Origin: Nitrospirota bacterium
Lineage (GTDB): Bacteria > Nitrospirota > Thermodesulfovibrionia > UBA6902
Length of the DNA stretch: 35,008 nt
Reading direction: 5' to 3'
Assembly (NCBI GenBank): GCA_016234115.1
Contig: JACRHD010000027.1
Span: 1-35,008 of the forward strand
How positions within the stretch are numbered: position 1 is the first letter of the stretch; every line of letters starts with the position of its first letter. A program made the position numbers and the translations under genes. A model generated the notes under the pieces. It saw only the letters and a program-made list of their open reading frames with translations, was not told the DNA's origin and ran no database searches. Below, piece after piece: positions 2,976 to 24,849 of the stretch.

Positions 2976-3308
2976 TCAGCTATCAGCGCCGGTGTCGGGA
3001 GCTTCACACCGACACAAAATTTCCAGGTAATCCCGGGGAGGGGTTACGACCTTGACTCCGATTCCGTCGTTTGCGCTGTCACCGGCAGATGATGCCGCCG
3101 TCCTTTTAACCCTGACCGGGATCATCACAGCATGCCCGCTTTGAAGGACTACCGTGTCAAAGGCCGAGTCAACCGGAAAATTCACTTCCGTATTTATAAA
3201 CATCCCGTTTTCCGAAAGATCGGTAACTGTTCCAGTGTAAACCATATTGCCGTAGAATATTCTTGCCGGCATCATGGCGGATTTTCTCTCATATGCCCGT
3301 TGTTCCAT
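2976..3308 (-). CDS. PilZ-domain protein (putative c-di-GMP receptor)
   Basis: A small 110-residue protein that is essentially one PilZ domain. PilZ domains bind cyclic di-GMP through an N-terminal RxxxR-type segment and a downstream D/NxSxxG motif. Here DLSENGMF supplies the second motif, and basic residues in QRAYERKSAMMPARI lie where the first belongs, although the exact RxxxR spacing is not clean. The ATG at 3308 is chosen because GAGG lies about 9 nt upstream; a TTG at 3326 would extend the frame by six residues. The gene starts 21 bp after the decaheme CHRD cytochrome gene ends, so it is probably the last gene of that cytochrome operon. Partner and output are not predictable from sequence. 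Confidence 0.85.
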   Translation of the reverse strand: MEQRAYERKSAMMPARIFYGNMVYTGTVTDLSENGMFINTEVNFPVDSAFDTVVLQSGHAVMIPVRVKRTAASSAGDSANDGIGVKVVTPPRDYLEILCRCEAPDTGADS

Positions 3309-3329
3309 AATAATTATCCTCTGCAAATT

Positions 3330-5072
3330 TCATCGCGCGCCGCCCCTTGGGAAAATAATCTGCCCTCTTATTTCGCCGGCGCGATTGATTTCCGTGTGCA
3401 CATTAAAGTACAACTGGTCGGCCAGCAGCGCATCGAACTGGGCCTGGGTAAAGACCGTGCCGGCCGGGACCACCCATGTCCCTTGCGTCGCGCCCTCGCC
3501 GCCTATAAGGCCGATTTCAACAGGCCCGTTCACGCCCGCAGGGGCCAGATGAATGTGTGAAGCAGTGGCAACGCTCGATAGTCCCGAGAAGCTGACTCTG
3601 CCGCTTACAGCTCTGGTAACAAGGTCCACTGTCAGTGCCCCCGTCCCGGTTCCGGAAGTCGTCACTGGCGGCGCCTCCTGCGACCCGCTCAGCGTCGTCA
3701 GGATAGTGAAGGGAAGCTGGACCTGGGCCAAATTGAGTACGGGAGCCGTTGCGCCGTCGTGACACAGAGCGCAGGCCGGGGCAAGCCCGCTCATGCCGCC
3801 TTCAAACTCAATACCGTGACAGGTGACGCAGCCTATGCTGAAATCACTCCCGTAGCTGCCGTGGAAATGAGCAGGATCGGCAGTGCCGGTCTCCCAGCCC
3901 GCCGGGTGATTTAACGGCTGGCCAAGCGCCCCCTCAGGACCGTCATGACAGGAAAAGCAGCTTATCAGCGACGATCCGCCGTCAAGGTCATCACCGTGGC
4001 AGTGCATGCACTGCTCCGCATCAAATGATACTGTAACCGGCTGAGCGCCGCCGGCCAGGTTGCGAATATATTCGGCTATGGCTTCCAGGTCCGCCTGACT
4101 GAGGTCGGTTAAGGCGGCCATAAGAGGCGTAGTGCCGATAAAGGAAGAGATGTCATCTGCCAGAATAAACGGAGACACTATACTTATTGCGGTCCTTCCC
4201 CCCGCGTCTTCACCGTGGCAGGCGGCGCACCGGGTCGAATAAAGGAAGCCGCCCCCGGACGCAGGCTGCACCGACTTGACGCCCGTTCCATGGAAATTGT
4301 CATTGCCGATTTCAAACGGGCTCACCCATCCATCGGGATGACCCAGGGGTGTAATAAAATCAAGGACCGGAGCGATAGTACCGTTATGGCAGAGTCCGCA
4401 CCCGGGGATAAACGGATTGACACTGCCTTCAAAATTAACGCCGTGGCAGGTCTTGCAACTGTCTTTGTATTTCCGTCCGTAACTGCCATGGAAATGAACA
4501 GGATCGGCGGTTCCATTATGCCAGGCCTCATTTGGATGGCCGACACCGCCGCCAGGACCATCATGACAGGTAAAGCAGCTTATCTGAGATATCCCTCCGT
4601 CCAGGTCCGAGCCGTGACAGTTCGCGCAGGAAGCCGTATCCAGGGATGTAGAGGCCGGTTGTCCTCCTGCGGCAAGGGTGGCGATATAATCGGATATTGC
4701 CTGTATGTCGGTCTGACTCAGGTCGCTCTGACCTGACATCAGGGGCACCGAGCTTATTGAGGACGCAATCAGGGAGGGCGTCTCCGACAGAATGGCGGGC
4801 CCGATCTTGCCTGCGGCATCGCTGCCGTGACAGACGGCGCACCTGTTTGAAAAGAGGATCTCTCCACTTGAAGCCGACTGTACCTTCTTGACATGCGTTC
4901 CATGAAAATCTTCGCTGCCGATTTTAAACGGGCTTGACCATCCGTCCCGATGGCTTCCCGATTCGAAATCGAACGTTGCATTAGGGTTGGCCTTGCTGCA
5001 GGCAACCATTGCCGTCGCTGCGAAAAATATCAACATAAGGAATCCGTATCTGATGGTCCTTATCTGTGACAT
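3330..5072 (-). CDS. Decaheme c-type cytochrome lipoprotein with C-terminal CHRD domain
   Basis: The 580-residue product starts with a lipoprotein-type signal (hydrophobic 11-24, MVAC box at 22-25) and carries ten CXXCH heme sites (CAVCH, CANCH, CFTCH, CKTCH, CGLCH, CAACH, CMHCH, CFSCH, CVTCH, CALCH). Residues about 41-240 and 246-448 are a clear internal duplication. Each half has one monoheme cytochrome-c-like module (CHGxDAxG, downstream PLM, then SDYIATL or AEYIRNL) followed by four closely packed sites, and each begins DGW-SPF-IG. Residues about 453-575 form a CHRD domain (SGSQEAPPV, ASHIHLAPAGVNGPV, YFNVHTEINRAGEIRGQI). The ATG at 5072 overlaps the previous gene by 13 nt and has GAGAGG upstream, implying translational coupling. 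A cell-surface electron carrier is inferred. I do not recognise a named family for the whole fusion. Confidence 0.9.
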   Translation of the reverse strand: MSQIRTIRYGFLMLIFFAATAMVACSKANPNATFDFESGSHRDGWSSPFKIGSEDFHGTHVKKVQSASSGEILFSNRCAVCHGSDAAGKIGPAILSETPSLIASSISSVPLMSGQSDLSQTDIQAISDYIATLAAGGQPASTSLDTASCANCHGSDLDGGISQISCFTCHDGPGGGVGHPNEAWHNGTADPVHFHGSYGRKYKDSCKTCHGVNFEGSVNPFIPGCGLCHNGTIAPVLDFITPLGHPDGWVSPFEIGNDNFHGTGVKSVQPASGGGFLYSTRCAACHGEDAGGRTAISIVSPFILADDISSFIGTTPLMAALTDLSQADLEAIAEYIRNLAGGAQPVTVSFDAEQCMHCHGDDLDGGSSLISCFSCHDGPEGALGQPLNHPAGWETGTADPAHFHGSYGSDFSIGCVTCHGIEFEGGMSGLAPACALCHDGATAPVLNLAQVQLPFTILTTLSGSQEAPPVTTSGTGTGALTVDLVTRAVSGRVSFSGLSSVATASHIHLAPAGVNGPVEIGLIGGEGATQGTWVVPAGTVFTQAQFDALLADQLYFNVHTEINRAGEIRGQIIFPRGGAR

Positions 5073-5500
5073 GCCCTGCACCTCTCGTTGTTCTTCCGGC
5101 CGTGGCACTTGAAACACATAGCCGGGTTTATCTTCCCGTCTATCATGTGCTGCGTGAGGTAGTCGCCTCGGTGAGGCAGGAACCTTTCCGGGGCATCCTT
5201 GTATTTGTCGCTCGGTTTAAGCTCTTCCTTGTTCGCATGGCAATCGTTACAGAACGATTCCCGGTGGCAAAGGTTGCAGGCCTGCTGACGCTGGGTGGCG
5301 TAAAACTTGTGCCTTACGCTGAAATCAGTCGTATGTTCCATTGCTGCGTACTGATCGGTGTGGCACTGGCTGCAAACAGGTTTTTCAACCTCGACAGGGT
5401 GGGTCTTTTGCAGACTCGTGTTTCCCGCACAGTTAATAATGATTGCCGCAAATATAACGAGCGCAAGTATTTTTAATATTTCCGGGTATCTGTTCTTCAT
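5060..5500 (-). CDS. Pentaheme c-type cytochrome, probable lipoprotein
   Basis: A 146-residue protein with an N-terminal hydrophobic segment (residues 8-23) ending in INC at 24, a possible though imperfect lipobox. It has five heme-binding sites: CSQCH (43), CNLCH (75), CNDCH (84), CFKCH (129) and CRACH (141). Extra histidines (H50s to H120s) could serve as distal ligands. The spacing resembles small periplasmic multiheme carriers. The ATG at 5500 lies one nucleotide after the stop of the barrel gene and the 3' end overlaps the decaheme gene, so the three genes are very probably co-translated. By position it could be the periplasmic electron feeder of the barrel. An alternative start nine codons upstream would overlap the barrel gene. 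Confidence 0.88.
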   Translation of the reverse strand: MKNRYPEILKILALVIFAAIIINCAGNTSLQKTHPVEVEKPVCSQCHTDQYAAMEHTTDFSVRHKFYATQRQQACNLCHRESFCNDCHANKEELKPSDKYKDAPERFLPHRGDYLTQHMIDGKINPAMCFKCHGRKNNERCRACHR

Positions 5501-5501
5501 T

Positions 5502-6785
5502 TTACGCCCCGATCTTCCAAGTCCCAAACCTGTAAAGGAATTTAAGGAAGACCTTCAGCTCCTCATCAAAAAAAGGGTTCTTGCCGTACTCCAGGTCGGC
5601 GGCAAATCTTACTCCGTCAGTAAGCTCGTATCCCACGGCGGCCGAAACGGCATAAGCATTCTTGACGTCGTTTATTCTCTGATCGTAGGAAACATTAAAC
5701 ACATCCACCGTCATGTCCGCCTGCCCGATCTTTTTATTTATATACGCCCTGTATTCGGTATATTTAATATCGTCGGTCTTGCCGTCCATGCGATAAGCCG
5801 ATAGACCCGCGCCCCCGGAACCTGTAACGGAGTATGAAAGCCGACCTCCGTAATAGTCCGCGTCCTCCGCAATATCGTAATCAAAATGTTTATACTGTGC
5901 CGCAAGAAGCAGGTTGTCAATAACAGCGTATGATGCTTCACCTCCAAAGATGATGACCTTCTCCTCCGGATCAATGTTGTTCAGGAAGGTAAATGCCTGC
6001 GTTGTAGCTGAAGTGAGGTACCTGCCGTAATCGGCCCAATAGAACTCCGGCGTGATCCGGAACTTCGCAATAGGGCCGAGAGCAAGAAAGTACGCATGCT
6101 CCATGATACCCTTATTAATAATATTATAAGATGATCTTCCGAGGACATTGATCTTTTCCACAGGAAAGAGCGATATATCAAAGCCACCCTCTTCTCTCAG
6201 GTCATCGCTGCTGTTTTGTTCTTTCAGATAAGATACGCCGGCGCGGTAGACGCCCGAAGTCTCATGCGTAATTCTACCGCCATAAGCCACGTCCCCGTCC
6301 CGCTCGTCAAAGTCGGTCTCAACAGGGACGCCACCGAAAGCGGCGATCCCGAACCCGCCCTTGATGTCCGCGTGCTTGTAAATGCCGTCTATCTGCTCAA
6401 GCGCCGCTCCTTCGGAGATAAACAGCCTCCCGAGATTCAGTACGGTATTGTCGGTCCTGCGCTTGAAGCTGAGATATGCATACTGAAGGTCGCCGTTGAA
6501 ATTTTTCGCAAAGCCTTCTTCGTCATTCTCTTTATATCTCGCCCAGCCGCCGGCATGAAAAGAGACCTCTTCTTTTCCAATTTCATCCGCAACAAAGTCG
6601 AGGTATTCGAAACCCGGAGAAACCGTTGTCGAACGGCTTGTCTCCCTTGACTGGAAGTAGGTTTTTGACTCTCCGTTCAGGGTAAAAGCAGGAGACTGAA
6701 TGGGACAGGAGAGCATTATCATAAATGCAGTGAAGAGCAGGACCCTGTTAATTCCGTTCCGGTTTCTCAGTAAATGCGCGTACAT
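5502..6785 (-). CDS. Outer-membrane beta-barrel protein of a cytochrome cluster
   Basis: The product (427 residues) has an N-terminal signal peptide (basic RNRNGINR then a hydrophobic run to about residue 37). The remainder consists of alternating amphipathic strands rich in Tyr, Phe and Gly, such as GGWARYKE, LQYAYLSFK, AYRMDGKTDD and FLKFLYRFGTW, with polar turns, as expected for a porin. Length and strand pattern suggest a barrel of 16-20 strands, shorter than MtrB/PioB. It is first in a tight operon with 5-heme and 10-heme cytochromes, so a porin-cytochrome conduit role is inferred. A TTGACA / TAACTT pair (6821 to 6794, minus strand) could be the promoter but would leave almost no leader before 6785. 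No Shine-Dalgarno sequence is evident, so the start is uncertain. Confidence 0.75.
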   Translation of the reverse strand: MYAHLLRNRNGINRVLLFTAFMIMLSCPIQSPAFTLNGESKTYFQSRETSRSTTVSPGFEYLDFVADEIGKEEVSFHAGGWARYKENDEEGFAKNFNGDLQYAYLSFKRRTDNTVLNLGRLFISEGAALEQIDGIYKHADIKGGFGIAAFGGVPVETDFDERDGDVAYGGRITHETSGVYRAGVSYLKEQNSSDDLREEGGFDISLFPVEKINVLGRSSYNIINKGIMEHAYFLALGPIAKFRITPEFYWADYGRYLTSATTQAFTFLNNIDPEEKVIIFGGEASYAVIDNLLLAAQYKHFDYDIAEDADYYGGRLSYSVTGSGGAGLSAYRMDGKTDDIKYTEYRAYINKKIGQADMTVDVFNVSYDQRINDVKNAYAVSAAVGYELTDGVRFAADLEYGKNPFFDEELKVFLKFLYRFGTWKIGA

Positions 6786-6793
6786 TAATAAAG

Positions 6794-6821
6794 AAGTTAC
6801 CACAATTTCGGGACTTGTCAA
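6794..6821 (-). promoter_or_regulatory. Candidate sigma70 promoter for the barrel-cytochrome-PilZ operon
   Basis: On the minus strand TTGACA (6821-6816) is followed after 16 nt by TAACTT (6799-6794). It directly precedes the first gene, but the predicted start site falls almost on the chosen ATG, so either the mRNA is near-leaderless or the real promoter is further up. Confidence 0.35.
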
Positions 6822-6907
6822 GGGGGCAATTAATTTTATTTAAACTACTATTGCCTCCTCCGGCGGATCATGCCGGACGCGACAGGCGCGATAAATTATT
6901 TTTAATC

Positions 6908-7078
6908 TTGTAATCCGGATCACTGCCTTAATTGGGATGATCCTTTATTATTCTTCAATGCATGATGATCTGTATCCGACTATATCCGCGTGTTTTATAC
7001 CTGACAATGCGTTGCGCGACATATTTTTCTTTCTGTAATTCAGGTCACTGCTTGACTTGGAATGATTCTTTATTATAA
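6908..7078 (+). repeat. Imperfect direct repeat of a promoter-like block (copies 6908-6953 and 7033-7078)
   Basis: Two about 46-bp blocks, 125 bp apart, share TGTAAT, TCACTGC, TTGG-ATGAT and CTTTATTAT in the same order at roughly three-quarters identity. The right copy contains the TTGACT/TATAAG promoter, and the left copy has a decayed equivalent. The rest of 6822-7051 shows no gene. Confidence 0.6.
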
Positions 7079-7364: not shown

Positions 7365-9632
7365 TTGAAAAGAACAACAATCATAGCACTGTGTACCATC
7401 GCCCTTACAGTCTTCGCTGTATGGGCATCCGACGTTTTGGCCTATGACACATGGTCTGGAGGCTGTCAATCATGTCACGGCGGCTTCCGCTCAACTTATA
7501 CCTCGCTTCACGACGGGCAGTCGTGGGGCAGCAACCTGCATGATGTGCACAGAAACACAATGTTAAGCGGAGATTGCAATGCATGTCATACCGGGTCGAG
7601 CAGGACTCCGGTATATCTTAATAGAGCAAACGGCGGAAGCGGATTTTCCGCGCTTGGCTGCTCCGGCTGCCATGGCCGGGCAGAAGACAATGTCGGCTCC
7701 GGATCGAGCGGGGCAGGCCTGCGCCAGCATCATTATATATCAGGCGAGACGGTCTGCGCCGGGTGTCATAGTGACGCCAATCCCGTAAATTTCAAACCCG
7801 TGTCCGAGAAGACGGCTCCGCCTTTCTACTTCACACCGGACACGTTACATCCTAATAAGCCCAACAGCAGTTGCAACCAGTCCCCCGGAAAAGAAAACTT
7901 TGCAGCCTCAACGGCAGGCCTCGACAACGACGGTGACGGCCTGTACGATGCTAATGATCCCGATTGTCAGGCAGTTGCAGCATGCACCGACGTCGATAAA
8001 GACGGCTACGGCTCCAACGGCGCGGCTTCCTGCACGAAAGGCACTGCGGTCGACTGTAACGATAACAATGCTGCCGTTAATCCCGGCGCTGTCGATAATA
8101 CCTGTAATGGAGTCGATGATAATTGCAGCGGCGCAGCCGATGAAGGTTATGTTCCTACAAGCACAGTGTGCGGCAAAGGAATTTGCGCAGCCACAGGCCA
8201 GTTGACCTGTCAGGCAGGCAAAACCGTAGACACCTGCGTCGCAGGGACTCCACAGACAGAGGGACCGGCGGGCAATGCTACATGCAGCGATTCACGGGAC
8301 AATGACTGCGACGGCACAACCGACTCTCTCGACTCTAACTGCGTACCGGTATGCAATCCGACAGCAGAAGTCTGCGACGGCAAGGATAATGACTGTGACG
8401 GCCAGATAGATGAGGGCATAACCTCGACACCGACTACCTGCGGTGTCGGCTCATGCGCGTCTACAGGCACACAGTCGTGCGCAGGCGGCCAGATGGTCGA
8501 CAGTTGCAAGGCGGGAACTCCGCAGACCGAGGGACCGTTCGGCAGCCCGACATGCGGTGACGGACTGGACAATAACTGCAACGGACAGACCGATGTGACG
8601 GATGCAAGCTGTGCTCAGACATGCGTACCGGCAACTGAAGTCTGCGACGGCAAAGACAATGACTGTGACAGCCAGATAGACGAGGGCATAACCTCGACAC
8701 CGACTACCTGCGGCGTCGGCTCATGCGCGTCAACAGGCACACAGTCGTGCGTAGGCGGCCAAATGGTCGACAGTTGCAAAGCGGGTTCGCCCACAGCAGA
8801 AATATGCGACGGCAAAGACAACAACTGTAACGGGACAACAGACGACGGCATAGCCTCAACACCTACGACGTGCGGCGTCGGAGTCTGCGCGGCCACAGGT
8901 CAGTCAACCTGTCAGGGCGGCAGGATGGTCGACAGTTGCACTGCCGGGACCCCGCAGACAGAGGGACCGTCAGGCGGCGCAACATGCAGTGATTCACTTG
9001 ATAACAACTGTAACGGACAAACCGATGCAGCAGACGCAAACTGCTCAGGGACTCCTCCGACGGCGTGTATTGACAAAGACCGCGACGGTTACGGTTCCAA
9101 CGGCGCGCCTACATGCAAGAAGGGTACGGCGATTGACTGTAACGACAGCAAGTCGTCTGTAAATCCAGGGGCCGCTGAAGTATGCGACGGCAAGGACAAT
9201 AATTGCAACGGCAGGACCGATGAAGGCGTTGCAAAGACCTATTACAGAGATAGCGACAGGGATGGTTACGGAAATCCGGCCTCTTCCAAAGAAAGCTGCA
9301 GAAGATCTTACGGTTACGTCATAAACAATACAGATTGTAATGACTCAAACTGGAGAATTCATCCCCAGGCTATTGAAACATGCGGAGATGGTATCGACCA
9401 GAACTGCAATGGAAACACTGACGACGTGTGCGCAGTGGACAATGATGAAGACGATGATGATGAAGGCGGCAGTTCCGGAGCTCCGGCCGATCATACCGAC
9501 AGTCAGGATGGGAAAAGGCACAAACCCGGCAAGGACGAGCCGTATGACAACAAGTGCACTTCCTGTCACGGCAGCGATCTGCGCGGCGGTGCCGGCCCTT
9601 CCTGCTATTCTTGCCACGGCAAGGAATGGTAG
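7365..9632 (+). CDS. Secreted hexaheme protein with nine MopE-type metal-binding repeats
   Basis: The 755-residue product starts at a TTG with AAGGAG seven bases upstream and has a clean signal peptide ending DVLA at residue 26. Four heme sites lie at the N-terminus (CQSCH 34, CNACH 71, CSGCH 99, CAGCH 131) and two at the extreme C-terminus (CTSCH 731, CYSCH 747). Between them are nine copies of the MopE-type putative metal-binding motif, typified by CDGKDNDCDGQIDEG (near 247, 307, 337, 397, 427, 481, 541, 607, 673), plus DKDGYGSNG calcium-loop-like segments. A very acidic DNDEDDDDE stretch precedes the C-terminal hemes. MopE-type repeats occur in surface proteins and one founding member binds copper. 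A surface-located metal-binding electron carrier is inferred. It stands alone, bounded by its own promoter and terminator. Confidence 0.88.
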   Translation: MKRTTIIALCTIALTVFAVWASDVLAYDTWSGGCQSCHGGFRSTYTSLHDGQSWGSNLHDVHRNTMLSGDCNACHTGSSRTPVYLNRANGGSGFSALGCSGCHGRAEDNVGSGSSGAGLRQHHYISGETVCAGCHSDANPVNFKPVSEKTAPPFYFTPDTLHPNKPNSSCNQSPGKENFAASTAGLDNDGDGLYDANDPDCQAVAACTDVDKDGYGSNGAASCTKGTAVDCNDNNAAVNPGAVDNTCNGVDDNCSGAADEGYVPTSTVCGKGICAATGQLTCQAGKTVDTCVAGTPQTEGPAGNATCSDSRDNDCDGTTDSLDSNCVPVCNPTAEVCDGKDNDCDGQIDEGITSTPTTCGVGSCASTGTQSCAGGQMVDSCKAGTPQTEGPFGSPTCGDGLDNNCNGQTDVTDASCAQTCVPATEVCDGKDNDCDSQIDEGITSTPTTCGVGSCASTGTQSCVGGQMVDSCKAGSPTAEICDGKDNNCNGTTDDGIASTPTTCGVGVCAATGQSTCQGGRMVDSCTAGTPQTEGPSGGATCSDSLDNNCNGQTDAADANCSGTPPTACIDKDRDGYGSNGAPTCKKGTAIDCNDSKSSVNPGAAEVCDGKDNNCNGRTDEGVAKTYYRDSDRDGYGNPASSKESCRRSYGYVINNTDCNDSNWRIHPQAIETCGDGIDQNCNGNTDDVCAVDNDEDDDDEGGSSGAPADHTDSQDGKRHKPGKDEPYDNKCTSCHGSDLRGGAGPSCYSCHGKEW
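8367..8786 (+). repeat. Near-identical 150-bp direct repeat, 270-bp period, inside the MopE-like gene
   Basis: 8367-8516 and 8637-8786 are almost identical at the DNA level; both encode the block from EVCDGKDNDCD through GGQMVDSCKAG. Because codon choice is shared as well as amino acids, the duplication is recent or is kept uniform by recombination. Shorter related units lie on either side. Confidence 0.85.
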
Positions 9633-9807: not shown

Positions 9808-10125
9808 CTAATGAAGTGTCTTCAAAAACTCCTTGTATTCCGAGGGAGGATCTATAATTTCCAGTCCCACACTGTTTGTGCGGTCTTCCACGGAATTGTC
9901 AACAGCCCATTTCACATGACAGTTGAGATTTATTATCTTCCCGCTGTTAAGCTCGAGCTCAAGATCTACTTCAGCGCCGGGCACATAATCGTGATTATTG
10001 GGGGCAGTGATCATGTAAATCCCGCTCTCTGAAAGGTTCTCTATAAAGACCGAGCAGTTTTCCGTACACGAGATGCGCTCGGCCTTAAGGTTCACCGTTT
10101 TCCTCTCGGCGCGTCTTCTTTCCAT
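9808..10125 (-). CDS. PilZ-domain protein, stand-alone
   Basis: A 105-residue single-domain PilZ protein. The N-terminus is strongly basic (MERRRAERKTVNLKAERI), providing the arginine-rich c-di-GMP-binding segment, and NLSESGIYM matches the D/NxSxxG motif. The C-terminal GLEIIDPPSEYKEFL resembles GVKVVTPPRDYLEIL in the other PilZ protein at 2976-3308, so the two are likely paralogues of one subfamily. The ATG at 10125 has AAAGGGG upstream. A TATACT box (10171-10166, minus strand) may be its -10 element, but no good -35 is seen. It is monocistronic, between two terminators and the tRNA. It is a c-di-GMP effector by family; its target is unknown. Confidence 0.87.
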   Translation of the reverse strand: MERRRAERKTVNLKAERISCTENCSVFIENLSESGIYMITAPNNHDYVPGAEVDLELELNSGKIINLNCHVKWAVDNSVEDRTNSVGLEIIDPPSEYKEFLKTLH

Positions 10126-18500: not shown

Positions 18501-20765
18501 CTATCGCGTGCCGTTGAGATAGTCAAATGCATTGCCTTCCCCCCCGAGTGTATCCTCAACGGACCCGTTGTGAGCGTCGTCATCGAGGAAATCGATGCTG
18601 TCATATAAGAGTCTTCTCACATACTCACGATTGTGAGCGTATGCGACCGGTATGTGTTTCAGGAGGTTGAAATTAAAAGCGGCGCCCAGAGTGTCTAAAT
18701 TGGCCCATGTCATGTACTGATACGAAGAAGTGCGTTTAGCAGAATCAGTGCACGAAGCCGAATTTTTCCAGAAATACGGATGATAATCTCCGCAATAATA
18801 TATTCCATCATTCGCAAGCTGGGTCTGGAGGGCATCAAGCGCGGCATTATATTGGGTGTCGCGGGTGTTCAGCGTCGAGATCAACGTCGATTCACTGTCG
18901 TGGCATCTGGAGCATACTTTGGTATAAACTTTTATGTTTATTACATCACCGTCGTCGTCCTTTTCCACCGGTTCCAGCTCATGGTTGGTATGATCATCAT
19001 CCGTCAGCATATGGCAGCCTACACACGGACCCTGGTCGCCGTCGGAGCCTTCTCCCGTCCCGATTGACGCATGAGCAAAACCCGTAACATTACTGTAATC
19101 CAGATCTGAGAATTCATAGCCGATAGTCCTGAATAAAATGCCGCCGTCGGCGAGGTAATGAGGGTTATAATTTGAAAAGCTGGACGATGGCGTACTGGAT
19201 AAATCCTTTATATACTGACCTGTCTGCCTGCCTGAATGGCAATTCACACAGATATAAGACCCGGCGATGTTCGTCGGGATGCTCCTGCCGGAAGGATACG
19301 CATATTTGGTTGAGTCCGGTCTTACGAATTGGCCCGGACTCCGTAAATCACCCACATTTGACGTATGGCAGGCCCAGCAATAGAGCATCTCCCTCTGATT
19401 GTCCGTAAGATACGAAAAATCGTTATTCACAGGATCATATGCGGATGGGCCGTCAGCCATGTTCCTGAATCCTGTTGCAGTGTGGCACCTCTGACAGGCC
19501 TGCCTGTTCTCCGCTTTAAAATCATAGTGCACGAAAGCCGGTCCCTCGTCCTCCGTGACCTCGTATTTGTGCGTTGTCGAATCCTGTGTGGTCCGGAGTA
19601 TGAACCCGCCGTGAGAGGAATTTGCCCATTCAACGTTTATGGTCTTGTCGGCGTTGTGCTGGTTATGGCAGTCCCGGCAGGCCCTGCTGTTTGAGGGATC
19701 AATGTTGTAACCTTCTATGTCGGCAGTTGTCGAGTCATCGAAGTGAGAGTCATAAATGATCATTTCAGTATCGAGAGACCCCGAATCCACCGCGCCGCCC
19801 GACCATGAACCCGGATTGTTTTTGCCGTGGTAACTGTCTTCAATGACCTGATGGCAGTTGGTGCATGTATTGTACTCGGCCGACTGCCCGGTAGTCGCCG
19901 CCATCAGGAGCCGGCTCGGATCATGAGCGTCATGACACGTCCGGCACTGCACGGCATTCACATCGGCAACAGTCTCATTAACAGTATCGGAATCGCTGTC
20001 ATAATCATAATTCAGCAGAGTGCTGTAACCACCCGATATGTCTTTATACTCTCTTGCCCCTTCATCTGTGTGGCACTTTGAACATGCGGCCATTGAATCC
20101 GTCGTACTTCCCGCCGCATAAATCTCGCTGTTTATCGAACCCGCGTGCGGAGACGCCAGGTAATCCGTGTAAATGCTACCGCTCTCGAGATAATCCGTTA
20201 CATACGTATCGCTCACATGGGTATTATCGTCATGGCAATTACCGCAGATGTCCGCTCCGGGCGCAGCATAAGGGATCGCGCCGATCCCGAAGTGATTGCC
20301 TCCGGAACCGTGACAGCTTTCACAGCCGACCACGGGCCTGTCGACAGTGCCCAGAAAGCTTATGCCCGTTCTAAGATAATATTCATCGAGGAGCATTCCG
20401 TCTCCCAGCTCATCATGACACGTTGAGCAGCCCGAGCCGGTCAAATCGGCAAAGGACGGGCTGCCTGCATAGTCGGTCCCCTCGTAGTTCCCGTGCGGCC
20501 CGTTCTTCCAGATCGAGAATATGTTTGTACTGCAACAGGAGGCTGATGCGGCAACTATCCCGGCCGCGCTTCCTACCGAGACACCGTCCGCATGGCAACC
20601 GTAGCACTCGGTAATGCCCACATAACTCCCGCTTGCAGGCGATGACCCGGAGTCTGAACCTGCTGATCCCCCTCCCCCGCCTCCGCAACCCGATAACATT
20701 ACAAGCGGGACCATTACCACTGAAATCAACATAATGGATCCGATCAATATTTTTTTTGTCTTCAT
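18501..20765 (-). CDS. 13-heme c-type cytochrome, outer-membrane lipoprotein
   Basis: A 754-residue secreted lipoprotein. The N-terminal hydrophobic segment ends in the lipobox LSGC (24-27), followed by a Gly/Ser-rich linker (GGGGGGSAGSDSGSS) typical of surface-exposed cytochromes. I count thirteen CXXCH sites: CYGCH, CSTCH, CESCH, CGNCH, CSKCH, CRTCH, CTNCH, CRDCH, CQRCH, CWACH, CVNCH, CVGCH and CSRCH. The C-terminal roughly 150 residues lack heme motifs and may be a structural or binding domain. GAAGGTGA precedes the ATG. It is the last cytochrome gene of the cluster with MtrA- and MtrB-like genes, so it fits the role of terminal extracellular reductase (MtrC/OmcA-equivalent), without visible homology to those named proteins. 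The electron acceptor is unknown. Confidence 0.92.
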   Translation of the reverse strand: MKTKKILIGSIMLISVVMVPLVMLSGCGGGGGGSAGSDSGSSPASGSYVGITECYGCHADGVSVGSAAGIVAASASCCSTNIFSIWKNGPHGNYEGTDYAGSPSFADLTGSGCSTCHDELGDGMLLDEYYLRTGISFLGTVDRPVVGCESCHGSGGNHFGIGAIPYAAPGADICGNCHDDNTHVSDTYVTDYLESGSIYTDYLASPHAGSINSEIYAAGSTTDSMAACSKCHTDEGAREYKDISGGYSTLLNYDYDSDSDTVNETVADVNAVQCRTCHDAHDPSRLLMAATTGQSAEYNTCTNCHQVIEDSYHGKNNPGSWSGGAVDSGSLDTEMIIYDSHFDDSTTADIEGYNIDPSNSRACRDCHNQHNADKTINVEWANSSHGGFILRTTQDSTTHKYEVTEDEGPAFVHYDFKAENRQACQRCHTATGFRNMADGPSAYDPVNNDFSYLTDNQREMLYCWACHTSNVGDLRSPGQFVRPDSTKYAYPSGRSIPTNIAGSYICVNCHSGRQTGQYIKDLSSTPSSSFSNYNPHYLADGGILFRTIGYEFSDLDYSNVTGFAHASIGTGEGSDGDQGPCVGCHMLTDDDHTNHELEPVEKDDDGDVINIKVYTKVCSRCHDSESTLISTLNTRDTQYNAALDALQTQLANDGIYYCGDYHPYFWKNSASCTDSAKRTSSYQYMTWANLDTLGAAFNFNLLKHIPVAYAHNREYVRRLLYDSIDFLDDDAHNGSVEDTLGGEGNAFDYLNGTR

Positions 20766-20866
20766 AAGTTCACCTTCACTTTATTTCGATATTTCACAAA
20801 AGAAACTTTAATGGCTTATGACCTTCATCAGTTTCCATACCTGTGAAACGCGCGTAAATCCTGACC

Positions 20867-21784
20867 CTATTCTATTACCCTGGCTCCGCCCCCGCCGGTA
20901 TTAGCGGAAGCGTTGAGTCCGCAGGCCTTCGCCTCCTTGACATTGACGGTTATTTGCAACTGTTTTGACTGCCTTACCGGGATTTCAGACGGCTTTGCGC
21001 CGCCCAAAACTTTTTTCAACATGTCGGCCAGCGCCGCGCCCTGTTCTTTAGGGTCGGCAGTGACGGTCAATATAATGCCGGCATTCTCTCCCCCCCCTAT
21101 TAACGCGGCCGTTGGTATTTTGTCTCTGCGGGCTGCGCCGATGATGTCTTTGATGTTGGACATTGCGGCGCCGCAGGTCGTCATTATAAGAGCGTCCACC
21201 CCTTTTATATCATCCTTATTCACCTGGTCTCCGATGCCGAACATGACCGACTGGAAGCCCAGTGCCCCCTCGCTCTTCTTGATGTCCCTCGCCTGTATTA
21301 TCGTGTCTTTCTCCGACTTGCTGAAAATGACGCCGAGTTTTGAAAACTTCGAGATTCCGCTCAGGTCCTTAAGGACCTTTTCGACAGGCACGGACAAACT
21401 GACTCCCGTGGCGTTCTTACCGGAAATGTTCATCGAATCGGGATCATAGACGCCGGCGTATAAAATCGGGATGTCGGACGTCTCCTTCATGACAGTCAAG
21501 GTTGCGGGCGCGCCGTAGCAAATAATAACGCTCGCGCCTATGCCCACGAGTTTCCTCGCGGCATTCGTCCATGACATCGGGTCCGGCATAGGTTTCTGGA
21601 CAACGATCTCCACGTCCTTGCCCATCTCTTCGACCAGGGCCTTATGAATGTCTCTGTAATACTGAATATCGGCGGTCATTATCGCGCCGACTGTCTTCGC
21701 CGACGCGGCATGACCCTGAGAAAGCACAAGCATTACAGCCGCCGATAAAAAAAATACCCTCTTTAATTTAAATCCTAATCCCAT
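20867..21784 (-). CDS. ABC-type substrate-binding protein (ABC_sub_bind family)
   Basis: A 305-residue exported protein with an N-terminal signal peptide (VFFLSAAVMLVLSQGHAASA). It has the two-lobed type I periplasmic-binding-protein pattern of the ABC_sub_bind family: VGAIMTADIQYYRDIHKALVE, ARKLVGIGASVIICYGAPAT, DIPILYAGVYDP, TGVSLSVPVEKVLK and IPTAALIGGGENAGIILTVT. No permease or ATPase gene is adjacent. The ATG overlaps the end of the barrel gene by 10 nt, so it is translationally coupled to the electron conduit. It could deliver or sense a ligand, or have been recruited as a structural part; the sequence does not decide. The C-terminus GGGGARVIE is unusually glycine-rich. Confidence 0.85.
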   Translation of the reverse strand: MGLGFKLKRVFFLSAAVMLVLSQGHAASAKTVGAIMTADIQYYRDIHKALVEEMGKDVEIVVQKPMPDPMSWTNAARKLVGIGASVIICYGAPATLTVMKETSDIPILYAGVYDPDSMNISGKNATGVSLSVPVEKVLKDLSGISKFSKLGVIFSKSEKDTIIQARDIKKSEGALGFQSVMFGIGDQVNKDDIKGVDALIMTTCGAAMSNIKDIIGAARRDKIPTAALIGGGENAGIILTVTADPKEQGAALADMLKKVLGGAKPSEIPVRQSKQLQITVNVKEAKACGLNASANTGGGGARVIE

Positions 21785-23778
21785 TTTTTCTTGACGCTTA
21801 CTATGATTACATATGCGTGTCCGTCGAGACTGCTGTCGTGAATGTTGTCAAGCGTATCGTCGATTTTGTTGTATTTGAACCCAACGTCGCATGACACGTT
21901 CTTCATGCACTGATAATCGGTCGAGACCTGGTAGTAAGTCTCCGTAAATTTCTGCCTGCTGAAAGACGCCGCCGACACGGGGTCCAGGAGGTCCGCGCTG
22001 CGCGGTGAAAATTCTCCGGCGCTCTTCGTATAAGCAACCAGGCCGAAGACATTTGCCTTCTCTACAGGAATATAATTAACAGATGCAGAATAGACGTGAG
22101 CCGTATCCTCATACGGGATACTATCGTCGACGAGAGGGTCATTGCCGGTAAAATACACGATGTCCTGCTTGATCCTGTAACGCGAATATGCATAGCTCGT
22201 CGTCAATGAAAGATTTCTCATTAACTGGAAAGCGCCGCTTCCCATCAAGCTGTCCGTCCTGGCGCTCCGGTCCTTTGCGCTTTCCGTCTCCGAGAAATTG
22301 AGGTCATTCCGTTTGTCTCCGGCAATGCGGTAAATCGCCAGCAGGTTTATACCCGGCGAAGGCGTCCAGGTGACCGACGTTGAACCCTCATCCAAATTGT
22401 CCGGCTCAATATTATATGAAGGATCGACGACCGCCTTATGAATGTATTTTGCATTGAAGTTCAATCCTTTCACCATGCGCAAATCCGTGGACAATTGCAT
22501 GGCGTGTTTTTTTGTGGCATCCTGCAGGTCCCAGTCGTCGGCGTTTTCCCTTTCGATATTCTCAAAGGAGTACTTCGCCTTCAGTGTCACCCCTCTCTCG
22601 GGGCTGTATCTCCCTGTCAATGAAAACGCGTCCGTGGTCTTTGAGATGGAGGGCTTGACCGTAAAAGTAAAGGTCCCCGGAACGAAATTGCCGGAACCGT
22701 CGTCCACCATGCCGGAAATCGAAGCGGTCGAGGGATTGTCCACATCGACATCCGTATGAGTATACTTCATAAAGAACGAAAGCCTGCTCAACGGGGTCCA
22801 CTGCAGGGTCCCAGCGCCATACAATATATCGGCGCTTGCGCCGCTGTCCTCATTATTCCTCTCCTTTATCGAAACTGTCGCGGAAGCGACAACACGCTCA
22901 TTGTAGTTGGAATGAACTTTCAGCGTGTTGGAGGAGCCTTCGAGCTCGGAGACTCTGTTATGAGGCAGGTCTCTTCGTGAACGGAAGGCGCTCGCCTCAT
23001 AACGATCAATCAGCTCATCGCCCTTCCGGACTTCGAACTTCTTTTCAACGTGGGAAAATTCAGCTTCCGCGTGACCGAGGTGGCTGTTTAGTCCGAATTC
23101 ATATTTCTCCGTGTCCCAGTCCATGTCCCTGACCTGCGTAACACGTTTCATGTTCTGGAAAAAGCCGGACCCCAGGAGGCTCCGCTGTTGAAAGTCCCCT
23201 TCTCTATTTACATAAAACAACCTGAAAAAGGCATGGGCCGGAAAGTCCGGGGCCTTCAGCCGCAATGCGACATTATTTATTCTCGTTGTCATCCCGTACT
23301 CCACAGCGCCGTCACGGGCATCAATGCTGAAGAGCGAAGAAGCCGTGTCGAGGTCCGCCAGCCTGATGTTATCCAGGTTATGGAATGACGTGGAATGCAT
23401 CCACCTTCCAACCAGCAACTCCCCGTACGCAAGATTGACGTCCCCCTGGAGGTCCTCTTTGCTATGCACATCGAAGTCCGCATGCAGCCTGATATTGTAT
23501 TTGTAGGCCTCCAGGCGTCCGCCGAAGACCGGAACATTATCCGGATGTTCATATTCAAACGCCTTCTTCGAACCGGAAAAGTCGGTGAACCTGTAGCCCA
23601 GATAGAGGGCCCCTTCCGGTTTTATTTCGGTATGCCTGTATTGCACAGGCTTTTCCTCCTGCGTGATTCCCAACTCCTCCAGCATCTTCAGGTCATCCAT
23701 ATCCTGGGCATATGTCCTGCCTGCGATGATGAAAGACAGGGTCAACAGGAAGATTTTCATATAAATCTTATTTGTCAT
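21775..23778 (-). CDS. MtrB/PioB-like outer-membrane beta-barrel of a decaheme conduit
   Basis: A 667-residue outer-membrane protein with a signal peptide (IFLLTLSFIIAGRTYAQ). It then has a long series of amphipathic strands with alternating aromatic and polar residues separated by acidic loops, for example TLQWTPLSRLSFFMKYTHTD, SFENIERENADDWDLQDATK and STDYQCMKNVSCDVGFKYN. The length and the repeated strand-turn plan (EGSTSVTWTPSPGINLLAIY, SASVNYIPVEKANVFGLVAY) match the decaheme-associated MtrB/PioB group of 22-26-stranded barrels that sheath a periplasmic decaheme protein. AGGAAC precedes the ATG at 23778; a second ATG at 23760 is possible. It lies 15 bp after the decaheme gene, which supports a physical partnership. 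Confidence 0.85.
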   Translation of the reverse strand: MTNKIYMKIFLLTLSFIIAGRTYAQDMDDLKMLEELGITQEEKPVQYRHTEIKPEGALYLGYRFTDFSGSKKAFEYEHPDNVPVFGGRLEAYKYNIRLHADFDVHSKEDLQGDVNLAYGELLVGRWMHSTSFHNLDNIRLADLDTASSLFSIDARDGAVEYGMTTRINNVALRLKAPDFPAHAFFRLFYVNREGDFQQRSLLGSGFFQNMKRVTQVRDMDWDTEKYEFGLNSHLGHAEAEFSHVEKKFEVRKGDELIDRYEASAFRSRRDLPHNRVSELEGSSNTLKVHSNYNERVVASATVSIKERNNEDSGASADILYGAGTLQWTPLSRLSFFMKYTHTDVDVDNPSTASISGMVDDGSGNFVPGTFTFTVKPSISKTTDAFSLTGRYSPERGVTLKAKYSFENIERENADDWDLQDATKKHAMQLSTDLRMVKGLNFNAKYIHKAVVDPSYNIEPDNLDEGSTSVTWTPSPGINLLAIYRIAGDKRNDLNFSETESAKDRSARTDSLMGSGAFQLMRNLSLTTSYAYSRYRIKQDIVYFTGNDPLVDDSIPYEDTAHVYSASVNYIPVEKANVFGLVAYTKSAGEFSPRSADLLDPVSAASFSRQKFTETYYQVSTDYQCMKNVSCDVGFKYNKIDDTLDNIHDSSLDGHAYVIIVSVKKKWD

Positions 23779-23793
23779 ATAGTTCCTGTTTGA

Positions 23794-24846
23794 CTAATTA
23801 ATAAACTTTCCCCTTCCGTCGGTCCCGCCGGTTGACGGCAGGTCTGTGCCGTGTATCTGTGAGTGACAATCCGTGCAGCGCGTAAAGAATGCTCCTGATG
23901 CCTGCTCTGTTGCAGGCAGATGACCGCGTGGACCGTGGCACTGAAGGCAGAGAAACGGCTCGCTGACCTTGAGGAGGTTGTTGTTGACCGAGCCGTGCGA
24001 GTTGTGACATGCCGAGCACTCGTCGTTTATGTCGGCGTGTTCAAAGACAAAGGGGCCTCTCTTTTCTCCATGGCACCGCGTACACGTCTCCTGTAAGGAA
24101 TATTCAATCAACAATCCTTCGTTGGTCGTGCCGTGCGGATTATGGCAGTCGGTGCAGAATATCTTCTGCTCCATGACCGGATGATGGCTCGGGAGCGAAA
24201 ACTCGGCGGCCTGCATCTGGTGACATTTAAGACACATATCTCTGATGTCCCTGGGTTCAGTTATAAGGGACTCCCCCGCATGGATGTTGTGACAGTTGAA
24301 ACAGGAGACATCGCTTACCGCATGCGCCCCGGCGTTCCAGTTGTGCAGGTTGAATGAAGAATTTTCCGCGTGGCATTTCAGACACATGAGAGATTGGGCC
24401 TGGGCCGGCAGGTTTTTGAGATCAATAAAGGTGTTGTAATCACACGCGGTCTGCGTCCCTTCGGCCGCGTCCTTTTCCACCATTTCGGGCGTTACCCCCG
24501 AGACGGCAAGACTGCCGGGTCCGTGGCAGGATTCGCAGTTCACAAGCGGCATGCCGGACTTTTTCGACATCTGCGCGCCCATAGTGCTGGCTTCAAAGTC
24601 ACGCTGTATTTTGTCATGATAATGGCAGGCCGAGAGACAGTTTTTGTTTCCTATATAATCGGCGTCGATCCTGCCCATAAGCAGTTTCTCGTAATCCCTG
24701 ATCGGCATCACCTGTTTTGCCGACTTGATGGTTTCACATCCGGACAACGCGACAGCAGAAAAGATCAATATCAGTAGCGCCCTTTTAATTCCAAGGGTCC
24801 CCGCTCCATGCCCGGATTGCCCTGTCATTCTGAGATTAATCATCAT
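23794..24846 (-). CDS. MtrA/DmsE-like decaheme c-type cytochrome, lipoprotein
   Basis: The 350-residue product has nine CXXCH sites (CESCH 104, CLKCH 155, CFNCH 182, CLKCH 205, CTDCH 231, CTRCH 255, CSACH 277, CLQCH 300, CTDCH 324) plus a first site with three intervening residues, CLSACH (70-75). Periodic CHxxHG-like pairs (CHNIHAGE, CHNPHGTT, CHNSHGS) are typical of the linear DmsE/MtrA family that spans the barrel. A lipobox LSGC (34-37) suggests lipid anchoring, unlike classical soluble MtrA. The start is ATG 24846 (or 24843), with AAAGGA a few bases upstream; an N-terminal extension of about 20 residues precedes the hydrophobic segment. It is the first gene of the conduit operon. Inferred role: electron transfer across the outer membrane. 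Confidence 0.9.
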   Translation of the reverse strand: MMINLRMTGQSGHGAGTLGIKRALLILIFSAVALSGCETIKSAKQVMPIRDYEKLLMGRIDADYIGNKNCLSACHYHDKIQRDFEASTMGAQMSKKSGMPLVNCESCHGPGSLAVSGVTPEMVEKDAAEGTQTACDYNTFIDLKNLPAQAQSLMCLKCHAENSSFNLHNWNAGAHAVSDVSCFNCHNIHAGESLITEPRDIRDMCLKCHQMQAAEFSLPSHHPVMEQKIFCTDCHNPHGTTNEGLLIEYSLQETCTRCHGEKRGPFVFEHADINDECSACHNSHGSVNNNLLKVSEPFLCLQCHGPRGHLPATEQASGAFFTRCTDCHSQIHGTDLPSTGGTDGRGKFIN

Positions 24847-24849
24847 CAA

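Follow-up and report, generated by a model that had tools for sequence, protein, structure and literature searches.

A probable porin-cytochrome conduit in Nitrospirota

Three consecutive genes on the reverse strand of a 35,008 nt stretch of DNA from a Nitrospirota bacterium (contig JACRHD010000027.1, positions 1 to 35,008; henceforth 'the window') probably encode a conduit of the porin-cytochrome (Pcc) type crossing the outer membrane, composed of a beta-barrel, a pentaheme c-type cytochrome and a 10-heme lipoprotein that ends in a CHRD domain (Table 1). The genes are tightly packed: a single nucleotide separates the barrel stop codon from the pentaheme gene, which shares a 13 nt overlap with the gene for the 10-heme protein, and a PilZ gene follows the latter after 21 nt. 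The initial annotation had located all four genes and their spacings correctly, and had proposed that the barrel and the two multiheme proteins form an electron bridge whose protein families differ from those of MtrCAB. The last point agrees with searches of Pfam and NCBIfam, in which neither the barrel nor the pentaheme cytochrome matched MtrB_PioB or MtrA/DmsE, and membership of MtrCAB was rejected on these grounds; the 10-heme protein matches MtrC/MtrF only below the threshold. What the annotation missed is that the set belongs to the Pcc type, which is a known kind.

Scanning GTDB representatives with an alignment of the 5-heme protein yielded 79 loci, in Nitrospirota, Geobacterales/Desulfuromonadales, Holophagaceae (Acidobacteriota) and a few bins, of which 78 were scored. 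A homologous barrel is encoded directly upstream on the same strand at every one of these 78, and a multiheme protein with between 2 and 25 CXXCH motifs is encoded downstream in at least 73. As it was the 5-heme protein that served as the query, the pairing with the barrel constitutes independent evidence, and the conservation of gene order on both sides excludes a chance association. Hence the order that the initial annotation had suggested seeking in related genomes is retained, and the barrel does not behave as a simple porin in unconserved surroundings; together with the cytochromes fused to the barrels of relatives, described below, this supports the proposed electron bridge. Among 101 related genomes, 13 contained barrel homologues; a homologous 5-heme gene lies beside those with E values below approximately 1e-27, and the neighbours of the weaker matches are many-heme genes of another type. 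In a tree of the barrels, the window sequence clusters with those of other Nitrospirota, the closest being that of locus L016, from the same genus (99/93). At some Nitrospirota loci (L024, L026, L027, L028 and L030) the conduit genes are preceded by one for a large protein with 7-10 hemes and an N-terminal region of the GPAG type; several of these loci also have a lipoprotein-like gene, which may encode a foldase.

Both core proteins are also related to those of 8-heme clusters in Geobacterales genomes. These clusters comprise a barrel of 403-423 aa, an 8-heme protein of approximately 225-240 aa and a lipoprotein cytochrome, sometimes in tandem; where the neighbourhood was read, the 8-heme protein was encoded between the barrel and a 9-heme lipoprotein, as in the ombB-omaB-omcB arrangement. 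The pentaheme profile matches the 8-heme proteins, mostly with E values of 1e-17 to 1e-23, and the barrel profile matches the corresponding OmbB-like barrels, mostly at 1e-17 to 1e-28. In a profile comparison with hhalign, the pentaheme corresponds to the first five hemes of the 8-heme OmaB-like protein (probability 99.2, E value 2.4e-19), the CXXCH motifs and distal histidines being in register. As both proteins have homologues in the 8-heme clusters, encoded in the same order, the core corresponds to a short Pcc-like pair. The two types of cluster can lie near one another: in genome G132 they are approximately 12 kb apart or less (C1:3876239-3888482), and they are similarly close in several other genomes of its family.

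Some observations weigh against this assignment. The likeness to OmbB and OmaB is based on 8-heme clusters that were recognised by their architecture, rather than through a named OmaB record; a sequence search for solved-structure relatives of the barrel returned none; and no ExtA-like periplasmic cytochrome is encoded adjoining the window cluster. In addition, when the barrel and pentaheme were folded as a single read-through chain with AlphaFold2 (AF2), the predicted local distance difference test (pLDDT) score of the pentaheme part was mostly below 50 and it could not be positioned. The structure prediction proposed by the initial annotation therefore succeeded for the barrel but did not place the 5-heme protein in its lumen.

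Composition of the conduit

The AF2 model of the barrel has about 21-22 strands, most of them at pLDDT 80-97, and the protein has no match in Pfam or NCBIfam. The best Foldseek matches of this model are generic outer-membrane barrels (porins and export barrels), which reflect only the barrel fold. Fusions of the barrel to cytochromes are found in relatives. In locus L020 (3577-5859), the barrel is extended by a class III cytochrome at the C terminus (E value 9.5e-13), together with a linker rich in proline and a weak match to SPOR; by sequence, L025 (3597-5906) encodes the same fusion, and in both the class III (c3-type) domain contains four CXXCH motifs. In L062 (4245-5834), a monoheme cytochrome c is instead fused to the barrel N terminus (E value 2.7e-9). 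Both termini of an outer-membrane barrel lie on the periplasmic side, so these fused cytochromes would represent electron entry points, and the fusions support an electrical role for the barrel. What looked like a fusion of barrel and pentaheme in L092 proved to be an open reading frame (ORF) in the wrong frame, and the mixed alignments A5 and A7 were discarded owing to misalignment of the barrels.

The pentaheme cytochrome carries a signal peptide. Across 46 homologues, the five CXXCH motifs are accompanied by exactly five other invariant histidines (H34, H56, H64, H110 and H118), making bis-His ligation of all five hemes likely. A lipobox cysteine is present in 38 of these proteins, including that in the window, and absent from the other eight, all of which are from Nitrospirota; therefore the family can dispense with the lipid anchor and need not be placed at the surface. 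A search of solved structures with the pentaheme sequence gave only weak, generic multiheme matches.

The 10-heme protein is a two-fold repeat, as the initial annotation described: its halves align over 206 columns with 53% identity (E value 4e-79), each consisting of one monoheme cytochrome c-like domain and four further CXXCH motifs, with the CHRD domain following the second half. Pfam detects a cytochrome c domain of the CBB3 type (E value 6e-17). Five further Nitrospirota genomes encode this (1+4)-heme module, in every instance beside a barrel and a pentaheme. The number of modules and CHRD domains varies, from two and one respectively in the window to one and two in L016, and one and three in both L125 (genome G003) and L126/L017 (genome G034). 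Among the Nitrospirota sampled, CHRD is fused to a cytochrome only in the family to which the window belongs, and no further CHRD domains were found in genomes G000, G002 and G003. Judged by these sequence comparisons, the outer cytochrome is the variable, exchangeable part of the system, and the barrel and pentaheme its constant core.

The CHRD domain is clearly identified by Pfam (PF07452; E value 5e-30), its score of 105.2 bits exceeding the cut-off of 24.1, and was modelled by AF2 as a beta-sandwich resembling that of superoxide dismutase (SOD), with a pLDDT of 95.8. The 28 best Foldseek matches of the model in the PDB are all Cu,Zn-SODs, with template modelling scores of about 0.5-0.6, though these are weak by E value (5e-3 to 9e-2), and the sequence itself has no match to SOD. 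Such a resemblance was postulated earlier by Hyvonen in 2003, as quoted in PMC5776111. By sequence, a solved homologue is chordin (E value 9e-18), which shares CHRD homology and the SOD-like fold with the window domain; however, the aligned solved copies lack the HxH...H pattern that the window domain keeps, and the latter differs from both chordin and microbial CHRD proteins in being attached to a multiheme cytochrome. A search of the open-access literature found no paper joining a CHRD domain and a multiheme cytochrome. The HxH motif, a third histidine and an arginine are invariant across 12 bacterial CHRD copies, although these residues fall short of the full set of Cu and Zn ligands of Cu,Zn-SOD, and that the domain binds metal is a guess from this pattern. 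It is a speculative and rather improbable proposal that CHRD forms a metal-binding, possibly copper-binding, SOD-like tip, such that the conduit would terminate not in a bare heme but in a site that is redox-active or captures metal, with the copy number tuning contact with the partner. The head suggests a testable idea as to how conduits recognise extracellular partners.

Proposed mechanism and alternative explanations

In the arrangement we envisage, the barrel would act as an outer-membrane sheath of approximately 22 strands. The pentaheme, as a short homologue of the 8-heme periplasmic Pcc cytochrome, would most likely sit in or at the barrel lumen and serve as a bis-His heme wire, receiving electrons from periplasmic cytochromes of the c3 or c7 type. 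The 10-heme lipoprotein would dock at the outer side and either donate electrons to, or accept them from, an extracellular partner, for which metal oxides, humics, another cell or other cytochromes are candidates. Its outer half may represent an exchangeable, tandemly duplicating head, and the SOD-like CHRD domain at the end would probably touch the partner or mineral; the initial annotation had likewise suggested that it could be a head for binding surfaces.

An identical order of the same types of gene occurs in ExtBCD of Geobacter (PMC6148476; PMC8357294), contiguous extBCD genes without a nearby extA having been reported (PMC6148476), and the window set could be the Nitrospirota counterpart of that system. 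The pentaheme would then be an outer-face lipoprotein like ExtC, as the lipobox cysteine of most family members might indicate, with a separate ExtA- or Ppc-like periplasmic cytochrome feeding the barrel. However, this accords poorly with the eight Nitrospirota pentahemes that lack a lipobox, and with the homology of the pentaheme to the 8-heme Pcc-like cytochrome, a protein assigned to the periplasm in the literature (PMC4245776); furthermore, a primer-derived pattern detected no G. sulfurreducens-like extD/extC ends in 48 genomes of that family. We consider this explanation unlikely. A considerably more remote prospect is that the barrel works as a selective channel rather than as part of a wire, with the cytochromes reducing a soluble substrate, such as an oxyanion, at the surface or in the periplasm. 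A precedent is ExtI: this porin, which belongs to a cytochrome cluster of Geobacter, affects selenite and tellurite reduction and has been suggested to be a channel (PMC5877670). The Foldseek matches of the barrel are of the appropriate kind, but the strict one-to-one pairing of barrel and pentaheme, the homology to the Pcc pair and the barrel-cytochrome fusions speak against such a channel.

The adjacent PilZ gene, which the initial annotation had included in the cluster, raises the question of whether the conduit is controlled by cyclic di-GMP (c-di-GMP), with the PilZ protein as its functional partner. The protein carries the RxxxR and D/NxSxxG motifs associated with c-di-GMP, which alters the expression of extracellular electron transfer genes in Geobacter, according to PMC12285248. 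In L016, a different PilZ gene, the orthologue of another in the window (9808-10125), lies directly upstream of the barrel. However, the three nearest relatives (L016, L125 and L126) all lack a PilZ gene downstream of the cluster, and a cytoplasmic PilZ protein could not contact outer-membrane proteins directly. A role as a partner thus seems barely credible; as the adjacency was found only in the window genome among the near relatives examined, PilZ was rejected as a component of the conduit and is treated as a mere neighbour.

Genomic context of the cluster

Table 1. Positions of the conduit genes, their domains and the neighbouring PilZ gene within the window.
Feature	Position	Strand	Details
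Beta-barrel gene	5502-6785	-	427 aa including signal peptide, no CXXCH; based on ORF, AF2 barrel and profile matches
Pentaheme c-type cytochrome gene	5060-5500	-	146 aa, 5 CXXCH, non-canonical lipobox Cys24
10-heme lipoprotein gene with C-terminal CHRD	3330-5072	-	580 aa, 10 CXXCH, lipobox-like AMVAC
Cytochrome module 1 of 10-heme protein	4353-4952	-	aa 41-240; heme positions 78, 149, 166, 206, 225
Cytochrome module 2 of 10-heme protein	3723-4340	-	aa 245-450; heme positions 282, 355, 372, 415, 434
CHRD domain of 10-heme protein	3351-3701	-	approximately aa 458-574; Pfam, AF2, Foldseek and conserved residues
PilZ gene	2976-3308	-	Pfam E value 2e-9

The start of the barrel gene is uncertain: the ATG at 6785 gives a plausible signal peptide, yet is very near a promoter-like box. 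This box, TTGACAAGTC, is located upstream of the barrel at 6794-6821 on the reverse strand, leaving almost no leader ahead of that ATG, and is conserved ahead of the barrel in L016, at approximately 4655-4682. Across the region, promoter-like sites are as numerous as in shuffled sequences; terminator-like sites are about two standard deviations above the shuffles, with no evident pattern.

Divergent from the conduit, at 7365-9632 on the forward strand, is a gene encoding a 755 aa protein with six CXXCH motifs and nine repeats of a MopE-type metal-binding motif (Pfam E value 6.5e-54). It lies between the barrel and the PilZ gene at 9808-10125, and is absent from the corresponding position in L016. 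The divergent intergenic region contains two 55 nt direct repeats, 78% identical, at 6897-6951 and 7022-7076, the core of which, TGTAATYCRGRTCACTGC, occurs nowhere else in the whole genome; these are possibly sites for a regulator. A separate, second conduit in the same window, an MtrCAB-like set at 18501-24849, encodes a DmsE-family MtrA-like cytochrome (NCBIfam E value 7.5e-73), an MtrB/GSU2204-like barrel and a 13-heme lipoprotein; an ABC substrate-binding protein is encoded in between.

Comparison with known systems

Shi et al. (2014; PMC4245776) described Pcc systems as having barrels of 18-22 strands, periplasmic cytochromes of 5-14 hemes and outer cytochromes whose evolution is not coupled to that of the barrel/periplasmic pair, and the strand number, heme number and variable outer cytochrome of the window set all fit this description. 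A 5-14-heme cytochrome adjacent to and always paired with the barrel has its equivalent in the pentaheme, encoded 1 nt away, and the outer c-type cytochrome of 1-15 hemes in the 10-heme protein with its lipobox-like sequence. The order of barrel, periplasmic multiheme and outer multiheme cytochrome is that of OmbB-OmaB-OmcB of Geobacter (Group I), although in that system the periplasmic protein is an octaheme, and the window differs in its Nitrospirota host and in an outer cytochrome from a different family. A 5-heme periplasmic Pcc cytochrome was already described in Geobacter sp. M18 (PMC4245776), hence conduits with such a subunit are known; what is new here is the variant with (1+4)-heme modules and CHRD. 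The present data reveal that Nitrospirota share with Geobacterales and Holophagaceae a branch of the Pcc family with pentaheme cytochromes, in which a constant core is separable from an exchangeable outer cytochrome.

ExtBCD of G. sulfurreducens shares with the window set the order of barrel, pentaheme lipoprotein and further multiheme lipoprotein, a likeness of gene order and type, and a periplasmic partner that is encoded elsewhere or replaceable; the window set is distinguished by its CHRD head and has no adjacent ExtA. Each of extB, extC and extD is needed for electrode reduction, extA less so (PMC8357294), which matches a conduit lacking its own gene for a periplasmic cytochrome. MtrCAB is alike in principle, as a barrel-sheathed heme wire with a surface multiheme lipoprotein, and the core, being small with its five hemes, would lend itself more simply than MtrCAB to structure determination and reconstitution. 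Finally, the N-terminal monoheme-barrel fusion of L062 resembles Cyc2, the fused cytochrome-porin, whereas the window barrel carries no heme and belongs to a multi-subunit family paired with a pentaheme; such natural fusions of barrels to periplasmic-side cytochromes provide direct hints as to the site of electron entry.

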